Origin: Collimonas fungivorans Ter331
Lineage (GTDB): Bacteria > Pseudomonadota > Gammaproteobacteria > Burkholderiales > Burkholderiaceae_D
Direction of reading: 5' to 3'
Assembly (NCBI RefSeq): GCF_000221045.1
Contig: NC_015856.1
Coordinates: 2,810,542-2,874,541 of the forward strand
DNA: 64,000 bases
Made by a program: the position numbers and the translations under genes. The notes beneath the pieces are model-generated. The model saw only the letters and a list, made by a program, of their open reading frames with translations. It was not told the origin of the DNA and ran no database searches. This document shows positions 902 through 31,115 of this stretch, piece after piece; within the stretch, counting starts at the first letter, position 1; every line of letters starts with the position of its first letter.

Positions 902-1789
902 ATGAGCAAAACCATAAAACCTAGCCGCCCCAGTCCTTTGCAACTTGACCTGGCAAATCGCCTGATCCAGCAGATCACCACCGGCGAACTGCCCGCCGGC
1001 ACCCACCTGACCGAAGAAGGCCTGGCCAGCCAGTTCGACGTCTCGCGGACCCCGGTCAAAGCTGCATTGCGGCTGGTGGCGGAGCAAGAGTTGCTGGACT
1101 ATCACGTCAACAGCGGCTACTTCGTCAGCAGCAATGCGCGGCCTGAAAGCGCGGCGGAAATGGTGGTCGACGGCATCAGCGGCGACACCCTGTACCTGCG
1201 CCTGATCGACGACCGCGCCCGCAACCTGCTGCCCGACACCATGACGGAAACCGATTTCCTGGAGCGCTATGCGGTGCCGCGCAGCCTGTTGCGGGGGACG
1301 CTGGTGCGCATGGCGGCGGACGGCCTGATCGAGAAGCGCCGCGGCCAGGGCTGGAATTTCCCGCCGACCATAGGTTCACCTGAGCTGATGACCGAAAGCT
1401 ACCAGTTCCGGATCATGGTGGAGTGCGGCGGACTGCTGGAAAGCAGCTTCCGGATCGACCCCGTCCAACTGCAGAACAGCCGCCTGGCGCACGAAAAATT
1501 ATTGCAGCAGACACCCGGCGACTATTCGGCTGCGGCGTTTTTCGCCCTCAACGCCGCCTTCCATGAAATGCTGGCGCGCTTCTCCGGCAACCGCTTCGTG
1601 CTGCAGGCGGTGCAGCAGCAAAACCAGCTCAGGCGGCTGGGCGAACATATCGCATTCCACCGCGATCCGCGCCAGATCGATTCATGCAAGGAACACCTGC
1701 AAATCATCCAGGCGCTGGAAAACGACAACCGGGAATGGGCATCTGCCCTAATGCGGCACCATCTTGGCATCGCCCGCGATATTAAGTGA
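902..1789 (+). CDS. GntR/FCD-type transcriptional regulator with two winged-helix domains
   Basis: This 295-residue protein starts with a canonical GntR winged helix-turn-helix (about residues 13-77; PAGTHLTEEGLASQFDVSRT is the typical signature). A second, more diverged winged-helix unit follows at about 94-155 (TETDFLERYAVPRSLLRGTL, then a wing ending GQGWNFPP). The C-terminal third is a helical FCD-like effector domain (FHEMLARFSGN, then a final HH pair), which in this family binds carboxylate ligands, often with a metal. FCD regulators normally have one DNA-binding domain, so the doubled head is unusual. It is divergent from the C45 peptidase gene and probably controls it and/or itself. 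The start has only a weak ribosome site. Confidence 0.85.
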   Translation: MSKTIKPSRPSPLQLDLANRLIQQITTGELPAGTHLTEEGLASQFDVSRTPVKAALRLVAEQELLDYHVNSGYFVSSNARPESAAEMVVDGISGDTLYLRLIDDRARNLLPDTMTETDFLERYAVPRSLLRGTLVRMAADGLIEKRRGQGWNFPPTIGSPELMTESYQFRIMVECGGLLESSFRIDPVQLQNSRLAHEKLLQQTPGDYSAAAFFALNAAFHEMLARFSGNRFVLQAVQQQNQLRRLGEHIAFHRDPRQIDSCKEHLQIIQALENDNREWASALMRHHLGIARDIK

Positions 1790-13754: not shown

Positions 13755-13931
13755 TAGTGGACTGCAACAACCGAATCAAGAGCGCTTGTCACGTATCCGA
13801 CGTGCATGGCGGCGTTGCAAATGCTCGCAATAGTCTCGCTATTGCTGCGCTTCGCGCGGGGCGGCCATCCGCCTTGCCCTGCGCATCGGATACGCGCCCT
13901 TCACTCTCGATTCGGCTATTACAGTCCACTA
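13755..13931 (+). repeat. Large imperfect palindromic element (copy A) between wspC and wspD
   Basis: The element begins TAGTGGACTG and ends CAGTCCACTA. The arms pair over most of their length (for example CCGAAT with ATTCGG, CGTATCCGA with TCGGATACG). Its central part, 13814-13857, contains GTTGCAAAT, CTCGC, a short stem ATAG...CTAT and TTCGCGC. The same core and the same TAGTG/CACTA ends occur in the element at 29591-29754. It carries no gene and is probably a MITE-like or structured repeat. The TA at each end might be a duplicated target, as in IS630-type insertions; that is inference. Confidence 0.7.
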
Positions 13932-27278: not shown

Positions 27279-27378
27279 GGACTCTCTTTCAGCAACAAAT
27301 CAAAACATAACATTCATTAACAACCGATTTCGATAAACTAACCGTACACTATCGACTTTGCATTTTATAAAATTTTGC

Positions 27379-29490
27379 ATGCTATCAACACTAAAACTCA
27401 TTTCCGCCGACCCCAACTCTGACAATATCGACCATCTGGTGGCCTTGATAAAGACCCTGCGCCCCAGCAAACCAGAGCTCGGACAGGAAGCGGCAGAGAA
27501 TGTGCGGATGCTGGTGCAATTGCTGCACGGCGAGCCGGTACAGGCCAGCGCCCTGCGCCACTATATCCTGCGGCTGTTTTCGACACGGCGCCAGATCAGC
27601 CTGTACACCGATACCGGCATCCTGCCGAACGCCGGCTTTTTTACCGAACTGTTCCAGCGCCTGTCGTTTCGCATGCTGCCGCCGGCGCTGGATGAAAACT
27701 ACCTGCGCGATTGCCTCGACCGCCTGCTGCCGGTGGAGACCGATTACCTGTGGATCAACGCCGTACCCGCGGCAGATTGGCTAAGCCTGTTCGACCTGCT
27801 GAGCCAGGCCGCGCCGTATACAGACGCCGAGAACAACGCCGCCAGCGACGCCGTCGATCGCCACAAGACCGTGGGCGAACTGCTGGAGGCGATCCAGACC
27901 CTCTCTTACCGTATCAGCGCCATGGGGCTGGAGCCGGCGCTGCTGCGGCTCTACCCGAGCATCGACGAGTTCGAATCGCCGTTCCTGATGCAGAACGTCG
28001 AACTGCACCTTTACCTGAACAGCTATCGCCGCCACCTGGCTGCCGCCGACTCGGCCTTCGACCTGGGCGAGCTGCCGCCGCTGGAAGACGCCCGCCATCT
28101 GTCGGTGATGCTGGACCAGTGCGAAACCATCGTCCTCAAGATCCGCAAGAACGCCTTGCGCATGGGCAGCAGCGTCTCCCTCACCTACCTGCTGGTGCGG
28201 CTCGAGCAAAGCATCGCGCGCCTGCGCAAGCTGCTCGACCTGGTCGACGTCGGCCCGGCCGAGGCCAGCCAGGCAGATGCAGCGCCCGATCCCGCCGCCG
28301 CCGAGGCCAGGCAACTCGCCAAACGCAGCCAGGCGCTGGCGCTGGGCCAGGAACTGATCGAAGGCCATAACCGCAAATACGCGGTGCGCGAACTGTTCAC
28401 CGACAATATCAACCTGCTGGCGCGCAACGTCACCGAAAACGCCAGCCGCACCGGCGAACACTATATCGCCGAAGACCGCTCCGAATACGGCGCGATGTTC
28501 CGCTCCGCTTCCGGCGCCGGCCTGATCATCGGCTTCATGTCGCTGCTGAAGATCCTGGCGTCCTACCTGCGCGCCGCGCCGCTGGTGGAAGCATTCTTAT
28601 TCAGCATGAACTATTCGTTCGGTTTCATGCTGATCCATGTCCTGCATTTCACGGTAGCCACCAAACAGCCGGCAATGACGGCGTCGCGCATCGCTTCCGG
28701 CCTGCAAAGCCGCGACGGCCGCAATATCGACCTCGACAGCCTGGTGGAACTGATCGTCAAGGTGATCCGCACGCAATTCATTGCGGTCGCCGGCAACCTG
28801 CTGCTGGCTTTTCCGGTGGCTTACCTGATCGCGCTCGGCTACCAGGCGCTGTTCGGCCATCACCTGGTGACGCCCGACAAGGCGGCGCACCTGCTGCACG
28901 ATATCGATCCGTTTGCCAGCCTGGCGCTGTTCCATGCGGCGATCGCCGGCGTCTGCCTGTTCCTGGCCGGCCTGATCTCCGGCTACTACGACAACAAGGC
29001 GCTCTACACCCACATGGCGCAACGGGTAGCGCGCGCACACTGGCTGCGCAAGCTGCTGGGACAGGAACGGCTGGCCCGCTTCGGCGAATACCTGGAGCGC
29101 AACCTGGGCGGCCTGATGGGGAATTTCTACTTCGGCATCCTGCTCGGCACCATCGGCACCATCGGTTTCATGCTGGGCCTGCCGATCGACATCCGCCACA
29201 TCACGTTTTCGGCGACTAATTTCGCCACCGCCCTGGTCGGCCTCGACAACCACATGAGCTGGCAAACCGCGGCCGTTTCGGTCATCGGCGTGCTGGGGAT
29301 AGGCACGGTCAACCTGTGGGTCAGCTTTTCGCTGGCGCTGTTCGTCGCTCTGCGCGCGCGCCAGGTGCGCTTCCGCCATGGCCTGGCGCTGGCCAAAGGG
29401 GTGTTCACGCGTTTCAGGAAAGGTCCCAAGGATTTTTTCATTCCGCCGAAAAGACTGGTGCCGATGGAAGAGGAAAAGCCTAGCGTTTAA
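27379..29490 (+). CDS. Gcr-like 'site-specific recombinase' family membrane protein
   Basis: A protein of about 703 residues. The N-terminal 370 residues are soluble and helical (LRHYILRLFSTRRQISLYTD; GILPNAGFFTELFQRLSFRM). The C-terminal half has several membrane segments (SGAGLIIGFMSLLKILASYL; LLLAFPVAYLIALGYQALFG; NFYFGILLGTIGTIGFMLGL; VSVIGVLGIGTVNLWVSFSL). It matches the family named after gonococcal Gcr and annotated 'site-specific recombinase', but no recombinase active-site motif is visible and a polytopic protein makes that role unlikely. Real function unknown. An in-frame ATG seven codons upstream is the alternative start. Confidence 0.8.
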   Translation: MLSTLKLISADPNSDNIDHLVALIKTLRPSKPELGQEAAENVRMLVQLLHGEPVQASALRHYILRLFSTRRQISLYTDTGILPNAGFFTELFQRLSFRMLPPALDENYLRDCLDRLLPVETDYLWINAVPAADWLSLFDLLSQAAPYTDAENNAASDAVDRHKTVGELLEAIQTLSYRISAMGLEPALLRLYPSIDEFESPFLMQNVELHLYLNSYRRHLAAADSAFDLGELPPLEDARHLSVMLDQCETIVLKIRKNALRMGSSVSLTYLLVRLEQSIARLRKLLDLVDVGPAEASQADAAPDPAAAEARQLAKRSQALALGQELIEGHNRKYAVRELFTDNINLLARNVTENASRTGEHYIAEDRSEYGAMFRSASGAGLIIGFMSLLKILASYLRAAPLVEAFLFSMNYSFGFMLIHVLHFTVATKQPAMTASRIASGLQSRDGRNIDLDSLVELIVKVIRTQFIAVAGNLLLAFPVAYLIALGYQALFGHHLVTPDKAAHLLHDIDPFASLALFHAAIAGVCLFLAGLISGYYDNKALYTHMAQRVARAHWLRKLLGQERLARFGEYLERNLGGLMGNFYFGILLGTIGTIGFMLGLPIDIRHITFSATNFATALVGLDNHMSWQTAAVSVIGVLGIGTVNLWVSFSLALFVALRARQVRFRHGLALAKGVFTRFRKGPKDFFIPPKRLVPMEEEKPSV

Positions 29491-29590
29491 CTATTAAAAA
29501 CAGACGTTGCGGGTTAGTCCGCAATACGATTAATCAAGCAAAAACCGGCGCAACACGGTAGTATCCGAACGGCAATATATTTGAATCCGC

Positions 29591-29754
29591 TAGTGTGGTG
29601 TTTCGTACGTAATGGCACTTAAGAAATGGTGGATTTTCGTGCCAGGCTAGGCGCGAACCGGAGCGATAGTGGCGCTATCGCGAGGATTTGCAACGACGCA
29701 TGGCGCGAAAAGACGCCGTTTATTAAGTGTCATTATGTGCGAAACACTACACTA
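29591..29754 (-). repeat. Large imperfect palindromic element (copy B) upstream of the phospholipase D gene
   Basis: It runs from TAGTGTGGTGTTTCG to CGAAACACTACACTA with arms that pair through most of their length (GGCACTTAA with TTAAGTGTC, and so on). Its core, 29651-29694, is the reverse complement of the core of the element at 13755-13931 at most positions. It ends about 11 bases before the phospholipase D start, so it may supply part of that gene's leader or promoter. No coding capacity. The outer bases give CTAG at each end. Confidence 0.7.
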
Positions 29755-29765
29755 GGTCTGAAGAC

Positions 29766-31115
29766 ATGCTGAACGCTCAGTTGCAAAGATTATTTCTAAG
29801 ATACGCCGCCGCCCTGCTGTGCGTCCTGACCGCGGCTTGCTCGACCTTGCCCGACGTCAGCAACCTGGGCGCCTCTGTATCGCAGGTATCCGCAGCCAGC
29901 AGCGGCCCGATGAGCGCCTCGGCCCGGCTCAACGCGCTGGCCGCGATGGAAGAAGCGGTGACCGGCAGCCCGCTGGTCAAGGGCAACAAGGTCACCCTGC
30001 TGTTCGACGGGCCGGAGACCATGACGGCGATGATGGCCGCCATTCAACAGGCCAAAAGCACGATCAATTTTGAAACCTATATTTTCGACCAGGACCAGCT
30101 CGGCCTGCAGTTTGCCGATCTGCTGATTGAAAAGCAGCGCGCCGGCGTCCAGGTCAACATCATCTATGACAGCGTCGGCAGCATCGGCACCCCCGCCGAA
30201 TTTTTCGAGCGCATGCGCGCCGCCGGCATCAAGCTGATCGAATTCAATCCGGTCAACCCGCTCAAGCGTTTCGGCCGCTGGCAGCTGAACCATCGGGATC
30301 ACCGCAAGATACTGGTGGTGGACGGCAAGATCGGTTTTACCGGCGGCGTCAACATCAGCGCCGCGTACGCCAACAGCTCTCTGTTCCGCTCGCGCCGCCG
30401 TGCCAGTACCGGCGCAGGTCCAGGAACCATCGGCTGGCGCGATACCCACCTGCAGATCGAAGGGCCGGCAGTCGCTTCCCTGCAATTGCTGTTCATGCAA
30501 ACCTGGGGCACCCAACACGCTGAAGATTTGCCGGACCTCGATTATTTTCCCAAGCTGGACAACGCCGGCGACAAGACCGTACATGTGCTGAGCACCCAGC
30601 CCGACAGCGACTACAGCCTTTACAAGGCCTATATCCTGGCGATCCAGCAAGCGCGCAAAAGCATACACATCACCACGCCCTACTTCACTCCCGACCGTCA
30701 GCTGGTGGATGCGCTGGTGGCCGCGGCCGGGCGCGGCGTCGATGTCACCCTAATCTTGCCGAGCGTGACCGACATCGGCCTGATGTTCTACGCCGGCCAA
30801 TCGTTTTATACGCAATTGCTGAGCGCCGGCATCCGCATTTATCAGCTGCAGGTTGCAGTGCTGCACGCCAAGACCGCCGTGATCGACGGCAGCTGGTCCA
30901 CCGTCGGCTCCGCCAACCTGGACATCCGCAGCTTCCTCCACAACTATGAAGCCAACGTGATCGTGATCGACGAACAGTTTGGCCGCGAAATGGAAAAAGC
31001 CTTCCGCGAAGACATCCGCGGCTCTCAGCAAATCACGCTGGAGCAATGGCAGCAGCGGCCGTTTTCCGACCACATCAAGGAATGGGCCGCGCGCTCGCTC
31101 GGCTACTGGTTGTAA
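29766..31115 (+). CDS. Phospholipase D / cardiolipin synthase-like lipoprotein
   Basis: A 449-residue protein. An N-terminal lipoprotein signal (ALLCVLTAAC, Cys about 25) is followed by two PLD domains. Both HKD motifs are complete: HRKILVVDGKIGFTGGVN in the first half and HAKTAVIDGSWSTVGSAN in the second. This is the cardiolipin synthase / phosphatidyl-transferase superfamily, acting on membrane phospholipids; a periplasmic side is implied by the lipobox. I chose the ATG at 29766 because the longer frame starts inside palindromic element B. It is convergent with hutG, four bases between the stops. Confidence 0.87.
   Translation: MLNAQLQRLFLRYAAALLCVLTAACSTLPDVSNLGASVSQVSAASSGPMSASARLNALAAMEEAVTGSPLVKGNKVTLLFDGPETMTAMMAAIQQAKSTINFETYIFDQDQLGLQFADLLIEKQRAGVQVNIIYDSVGSIGTPAEFFERMRAAGIKLIEFNPVNPLKRFGRWQLNHRDHRKILVVDGKIGFTGGVNISAAYANSSLFRSRRRASTGAGPGTIGWRDTHLQIEGPAVASLQLLFMQTWGTQHAEDLPDLDYFPKLDNAGDKTVHVLSTQPDSDYSLYKAYILAIQQARKSIHITTPYFTPDRQLVDALVAAAGRGVDVTLILPSVTDIGLMFYAGQSFYTQLLSAGIRIYQLQVAVLHAKTAVIDGSWSTVGSANLDIRSFLHNYEANVIVIDEQFGREMEKAFREDIRGSQQITLEQWQQRPFSDHIKEWAARSLGYWL

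Follow-up and report, generated by a model that had tools for sequence, protein, structure and literature searches.

We analysed two large palindromes, elements 1 and 2, in a 64,000-nucleotide stretch of the Collimonas fungivorans Ter331 genome (a single contig of 5.19 Mb; the whole stretch, C1:2810542-2874541, is referred to as the window). We lean, with moderate confidence, towards a reading in which they belong to a superfamily of miniature inverted-repeat transposable elements (MITEs) that is built from two modules, namely swappable transposon ends and an interior selected to fold on one strand, likely as RNA. The palindromes would be copies of non-autonomous DDE transposons whose two modules are separable. 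The outer module (about 20-25 bp) would be the transposon end, open to use in trans by any transposase that recognizes it; in this genome the ends appear to be of IS630 type (TAGTG with a TA target), and in other bacteria of IS5 type. The interior module would comprise a core hairpin of about 46 nucleotides, tagged GTT on its 5' side and GCCT on its 3' side, together with inner arms that hold the total length close to 160 bp. Selection would maintain folding of the complement of the strand that reads GTTGC (the GTTGC strand), with G.U wobbles permitted, and when transcribed the module would most likely act as an RNA hairpin (for example, one subject to RNase III-type processing, or a protein-binding structure) that could make insertions tolerable or aid the spread of the element. 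Direct support comes from the anatomy of the elements, one clean TA-duplicating insertion, covariation and strand-specific folding. There are hints here of a working RNA within seemingly parasitic DNA.

Element 1 occupies 13755..13931 (177 bp; GTTGC strand plus, well-folding strand minus) and element 2 occupies 29591..29754 (164 bp; GTTGC strand minus, well-folding strand plus), both being recognized by sequence, by fold and by a match to a covariance model (R2) built from 65 core sequences; another model (R1) was built from 49 cores. The core hairpin of element 1 lies at 13809..13863 on the plus strand (R2 E 1.2e-11), and that of element 2, which comprises the 5' GTT tag, the stems and the 3' GCCT tag, at 29645..29699 on the minus strand (R2 E 1.9e-13). 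A preliminary description of this DNA, made from the letters alone, had reported that both elements start with TAGTG, end with CACTA and carry a common core on opposite strands, all of which is confirmed in the sequence. Its core pattern was right about the common core and wrong about the spacing of the ATAG-CTAT loop, which has 5 bases in both window copies and not 4; a search with the original spacing therefore misses both of them and retrieves another copy only. The pattern GTTGCAAATNCTCGCNATAG, with up to 3 mismatches, has exactly 2 matches in the window (shuffles lead one to expect 0.03), and R2 at E <0.05 finds these two elements there and nothing else.

The family extends well beyond the window, and the preliminary description had made its case depend on this. 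Genome-wide, the same pattern (up to 3 mismatches) occurs at 19 places, of which 13 are palindromes of this kind and 6 (L015-L020), which have no palindrome, were left out; R1 finds 14 copies, with lengths of about 160-195 bp and inverted ends. As read from their sequences, the 13 pattern-found copies have TAGTG-like ends (seven with TAGTG at both ends, the rest with altered letters at one or both) and sort into four arm families. Terminal inverted repeats, many copies (14 in the genome) and a length below about 500 bp, the marks of a MITE, are all present here. The preliminary description had further suggested that the TA at both ends might be an IS630-like target, to be checked at empty sites. 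For element 1 (TA at 13755..13756 and 13930..13931) this stands, because the site in relatives G004 and G005 reads GGCCGAAGT-TA-G(C/T)CGTATG, the sequence that remains when the element and one copy of TA are taken out of the occupied site. It does not stand in the same way for element 2 (TA at 29591..29592, presumably half of a target duplication, and at 29753..29754): the element is absent from G004 and G008, but their sites read CCGCCGCAAGGTCT where CCGCTAGGTCT was expected. These are the four readable alignments of eight, the remainder (G009 and G014 at 29591; G008 and G009 at 13755) being too diverged. Because the first copy is missing in two relatives with a single TA left behind, we regard the elements as small non-autonomous transposons; they are MITE-like, and their ends together with the empty site suggest mobilization by the transposases of insertion sequences (IS).

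The core sits centrally in palindromes of about 160 bp, and the modal end-to-core distance is 56-58 bp in every end class, taken with presumed target bases removed. Among distant loci, 45 of 70 have a traced distance of 55-65 bp with target bases counted in; in the others the automatic trace ended early or overran, or the core was not found, and loci without a traceable core or end were dropped from the arm-tracing counts. Versions whose arms measure only about 26-36 bp are present in G303, G645, G784 and G526, and core palindromes with arms of this size at L257, L395-L397, L546, L547 and L559 have no recognizable IS ends. In the alignment of the 65 cores, 93.3% of cells are paired and 10 of the 12 pairs change on both sides; covariation involves 72 cells as compared with 12.1 ± 2.9 in shuffles (0 of 500 reach the observed value), a signal that is lost when partners are slid by 1-3 columns. 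The GTT and GCCT tags of the GTTGC strand are near-constant and unpaired. The constancy of ATAG/CTAT is partly due to the search pattern, and one copy (L013) has a different apical stem. In the arms, 24 of 55 predicted pairs show changes on both sides among 29 copies from the genus, in agreement with the earlier remark that the arms are unlike between copies and still complementary within each.

For this paired change the preliminary description had offered two causes, selection for folding and gene conversion between arms. The second belongs to an alternative that we consider unlikely, in which the elements are ordinary IS630- or IS5-derived MITEs, their arms are kept matched by template switching or gene conversion during replication, and the core is a functionless inherited middle. 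Palindromes are known to be corrected from arm to arm, and changes on both sides of the arms would follow from such correction as well as from selection. Left/right differences, however, fall at the same positions in many copies and have one polarity, which disfavours conversion as the sole cause; it may contribute, and of the two proposals selection for folding, on one strand, is the one we favour. A functionless core, for its part, fits poorly with a core that covaries across the class while its unpaired tags stay constant.

The same core is found between the ends of several kinds of transposon. We classified the ends of 169 elements, of which 111 have recognized ends on both sides, 32 on one side and 26 on neither, and the 58 without recognized ends on both sides were left out of the class counts. 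Among the 111, TA-target, IS630-like ends comprise TAGTG (47) and TAGTAC (3), the TNA-target types are GAGGCTGAGAG (25), GAAGGTGTGAACGAA (8) and GAGCCTGTGAA (4), T(A/T)A followed by GAACGTGTTCA occurs in 14, and CTAG followed by GG...CTCTGCACGAA or GGCAACGCTGAACAAG occurs in 10. The labels IS1031, IS427 and IS5 group are ones that we presume to fit from end motif and target length, the test itself covering Pfam transposase domains only. In Simplicispira hankyongi, IS630-type and IS5-type core elements lie within one 8-kb locus (L134). A functionless middle would be unlikely to stay alike between elements with such unrelated ends. Further end types surround the same core in distant genomes, namely ACTTCTNGCGTTCAAGAATACCCC (L260, L398 and L399), ATACCCGTGGCGTTTGAGATTT (L279 and L419) and ATGGGTGAGTCGCTACGACCTG (L277, L278 and L416).

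Candidate sources for some of these ends were found. The preliminary description had called for a related transposase with the same ends, and within the family IS630-type candidates exist: DDE_3 transposases have matches in 17 of 60 genomes, and among 30 DDE_3 loci examined 4 distinct ones have TAGTG-type (L176, L180 and L183/L195, the last pair being one element) or TAGTA (L196) ends, the two ends of each agreeing at 16 to 21 of 22 letters. The IS630 end that best matches a MITE end comes from another genus, not from this genome. Among 28 DDE_Tnp_1/DUF4096 loci from seven genomes, matching end types occur at L228, L229, L230, L235/L251 and L245/L254; these include DDE_Tnp_1 elements with GGATCCTCTGCA ends (L228, genome G079), with CTAG followed by GGAAGGTCTGCACAAA (L230, genome G076) and with TTA followed by GAACGTGTTCA (L235, genome G073), and none of the 28 has GAGGCTGAGAG ends. 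Derivation from the IS5 family is thus indicated, through ends and target held in common with a DDE_Tnp_1 element of the same genome, for some end types only. At L235 (about 1090-2000) a DDE_Tnp_1 IS has inserted precisely where a core element ends, with GAACGTGTTCA common to both at the junction. On 48 loci (30 IS630, 10 IS5 and 8 Correia), R1 found no IS with a confident internal core match; the weak match that R1 gave close to an IS630 gene (L174, E 0.0012) was dismissed because it has no pairing arms.

The arms also carry a signature of the strand on which they fold. Broken arm cells in the 29 genus copies are mainly A.C and rarely G.U, and when arm mismatches are read on the GTTGC strand in 155 elements from ten groups, A.C accounts for 748 cells and G.T for 160, so that the complementary strand pairs there with G.U wobbles. 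A.C exceeds G.T in 144 elements and the reverse holds in 6 (one single-element group is reversed; 5 of the 155 were ties or skipped, and only elements with at least 28 paired arm positions were counted). Conversion between arms predicts no such strand preference among mismatches. In RNA folding, the complement of the GTTGC strand is the more stable in 196 of 203 elements, by group averages of about 11-23 kcal/mol; element 2 gives -102.4 kcal/mol on the plus strand (z -15.7 relative to shuffles) versus -66.3 on the minus strand, and element 1 gives -109.7 on the minus strand (z -11.7) versus -88.5 on the plus strand (z -7.7). One strand, the complement of the GTTGC strand, thus seems to be selected to fold.

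A purely mutational origin of the A.C excess, with folding under no selection and, for example, cytosines of the folding strand being deaminated, strikes us as very improbable. The trace expected of deamination is G>A on the GTTGC strand, and paired columns in the genus do show this often (13 distinct changes), but they show T>C, a change that it does not predict, about equally often (11 distinct). Paired columns in the genus thus have 24 distinct one-sided changes of these two kinds versus 7 of the opposite kinds (C>T and A>G), and the unpaired columns of the same copies go the opposite way (5 versus 19; Fisher p 4e-5 for the contrast between paired and unpaired columns).

Another possibility, which we judge improbable, is that selection acts on a hairpin of single-stranded DNA, formed by the folding strand and recognized in replication or transposition, and not on an RNA. 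The orientation of the elements is indeed biased relative to replication, the GTTGC strand lying in the leading-strand sense in 46 of 61 copies from five genomes (7/11, 12/16, 10/12, 12/16 and 5/6 per genome; p 9e-5), with the origin and terminus placed by a fit to sampled GC skew and two copies on the second contig of G011 left out; among the 39 of these copies that were compared by their left flanks, no insertion site is common between genomes. DNA hairpins are expected to be harmful on the lagging-strand template, and the leading-strand template is the one least often single-stranded. Because the well-folding strand is mostly the leading-strand template, the bias argues against a DNA hairpin being what is selected, and DDE transposases moreover work on double-stranded DNA. 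Judging from the strand polarity and from the precedent of the Correia elements discussed below, the folding strand most likely acts as RNA.

Several results weigh against the two-module reading or limit its force. The empty-site junction of element 2 in G004 and G008 is not a clean TA, and this genome has no match to a DDE_3 transposase, so that the search for a transposase with the same ends succeeded only elsewhere in the family. DNA folding parameters give element 2 the same strand preference as RNA parameters (-52.0 versus -33.9); RNA is therefore not separated from single-stranded DNA by folding, and the DNA-hairpin alternative gains to that extent. Crude gene calls in 40 loci give 14 convergent or divergent contexts and 26 codirectional ones. 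In the latter the neighbouring genes have the GTTGC strand as sense 17 times and the folding strand only 9 times, so that read-through mRNA would mostly carry the former. The contrast between paired and unpaired columns goes in the same direction in five other classes and is weak there (24:17 paired and 59:80 unpaired, summed), with no excess at paired columns in two of the five, and this keeps the deamination account in play. Finally, the copies are related, so the counts overstate independence and the numbers are to be taken as indicators.

The core is widely distributed. With up to 1 mismatch it matches in 12 of 15 genomes of the genus; G010, which is listed in the same genus with 1.7 Mb and 99% completeness, has no such match and only weak partial element matches. 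At class level R1 is positive in 68 of 369 genomes (54 of 314 when only those of good quality are taken), or 56 of 272 genera, and in a phylum-wide draw R2 is positive in 63 of 398 genomes (38 of 338 of good quality). Of these 63, 36 belong to one family (f207) outside the class, many of whose copies have 57-61-bp arms and IS5-like ends. A scan of genome contigs with core plus loop yields at least 120 stretches, mostly Burkholderiales by title, and in plasmids element 2 has 7 partial matches (coverage 30-41%) around the core. The distant copy L410 has no match in the Escherichia coli genomes or plasmids, and the distant core pattern has none in the viral contigs searched. No Rfam 15 family matches the elements in the window and 11 loci at gathering score, and nothing appears up to E 10 for window positions 29500-29850. 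A literature search, with most subscription journals outside its scope, turned up no description of a family that combines one core with several end types; exact core words of 14-15 letters had no match in that literature, and six 11-letter core words matched papers none of which, judged by title, concerns such elements.

In the window, element 2 is flanked by a SpecificRecomb-family gene (27358-29490) and by a PLD-like gene, the in-frame ATG of the latter being at 29766, 11 bases past the element, and element 1 lies between a CheR-type gene (end 13695) and a CheW-type gene (in-frame ATG 13951). Directly 3' of the core stem of element 1, on the plus strand, is a 16-bp GC-rich insert, GGGGCGGCCATCCGCC (13858..13873), which looks like a small added hairpin; it is present in 3 of the 13 pattern-found copies of the genome (element 1 and, at the same place, L011 and L014) and in copies of relatives (for example, L025 and L029). 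Near one further genome copy (L010) there is a fluoride riboswitch (Rfam RF01734, 44.2 bits; 1324-1422, minus strand).

MITEs are usually seen as dead deletion derivatives of one insertion sequence. An interior common to ends of different families, together with strand-specific folding, would make function in a MITE interior directly testable. Several known systems offer comparisons. GTAG- or CGTC-tagged repetitive extragenic palindromic (REP) sequences also have a conserved unpaired tag at the foot of a palindrome, according to the part of PMC3733652 consulted, but they are 20-40 bp long, whereas here the core lies inside an element of about 160 bp with IS-type ends that is inserted whole. 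We rejected identity with the REP/RAYT system because the mobile unit is the whole element with its TA duplication (no search for a RAYT gene was made), and integron attC sites were set aside by reasoning alone, with no search made. Bacterial IS630-family MITEs such as the pneumococcal repeat unit RUP, as far as covered in the consulted portion of a review (PMC2229807), resemble the present elements in several ways: they are 100-200 bp long, have TA termini and terminal inverted repeats, are mostly intergenic and are predicted to give stable hairpin transcripts. They differ in that here the interior is held in common with IS5-type-ended elements and one strand folds clearly better.

A further parallel is with the Correia repeat enclosed elements (CREE, or NEMIS) of Neisseria. 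CREE, in the sections of PMC2649163 consulted, have TAGTG ends with TA, a directional conserved core and commonest sizes of 153-157 and 104-108 bp, all of which recall the present family. They are called unique to Neisseria in an extract of PMC5039591, and a review, again as consulted in part, states that RNase III cleaves Correia-bearing transcripts (PMC10969869), on which our suggestion of RNase III-type processing is modelled. With CREE copies taken from a viral contig collection, a 106-bp CREE gives a colinear core alignment to the family (GCGTTG..CCTCGCC..CTGCGG.TT.G.CGCCTTG.CCTGA) that scores 35, as compared with 22.9 ± 2.5 for dinucleotide shuffles (0 of 200 reach it), although 6 of 573 random windows of the same contigs also reach 35; a 157-bp CREE scores 31, which 1 of 200 shuffles reaches. 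Even when E values up to 1 are allowed, R1 detects no CREE, and R2 gives a weak match (E 0.15) that skips the middle. The letters after TAGTG and the central hairpin are unlike those of this family, the present elements do not have the 26-bp Correia repeat at their two ends (only TAGTG(G) is common with the CREE copies compared), and the two CREE strands fold about alike (-33.3/-34.3 and -49.4/-57.0), unlike the one-strand preference described above. A common origin with the Correia elements is possible, the alignments giving a faint hint of it. More tentatively than the two-module reading itself, we entertain the idea of a selfish RNA module, independent of any one transposase, that repeatedly took IS630 and several IS5-group ends, has been kept by selection for one-strand folding across the class and at least one further class of the phylum, and spreads or is tolerated through its RNA; the Correia elements of Neisseria would be the branch of it that is known best. 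If the link is true, elements investigated in Neisseria for decades would turn out to be one local offshoot of a widespread family, and harmless relatives could serve for work on the processing of their RNA.
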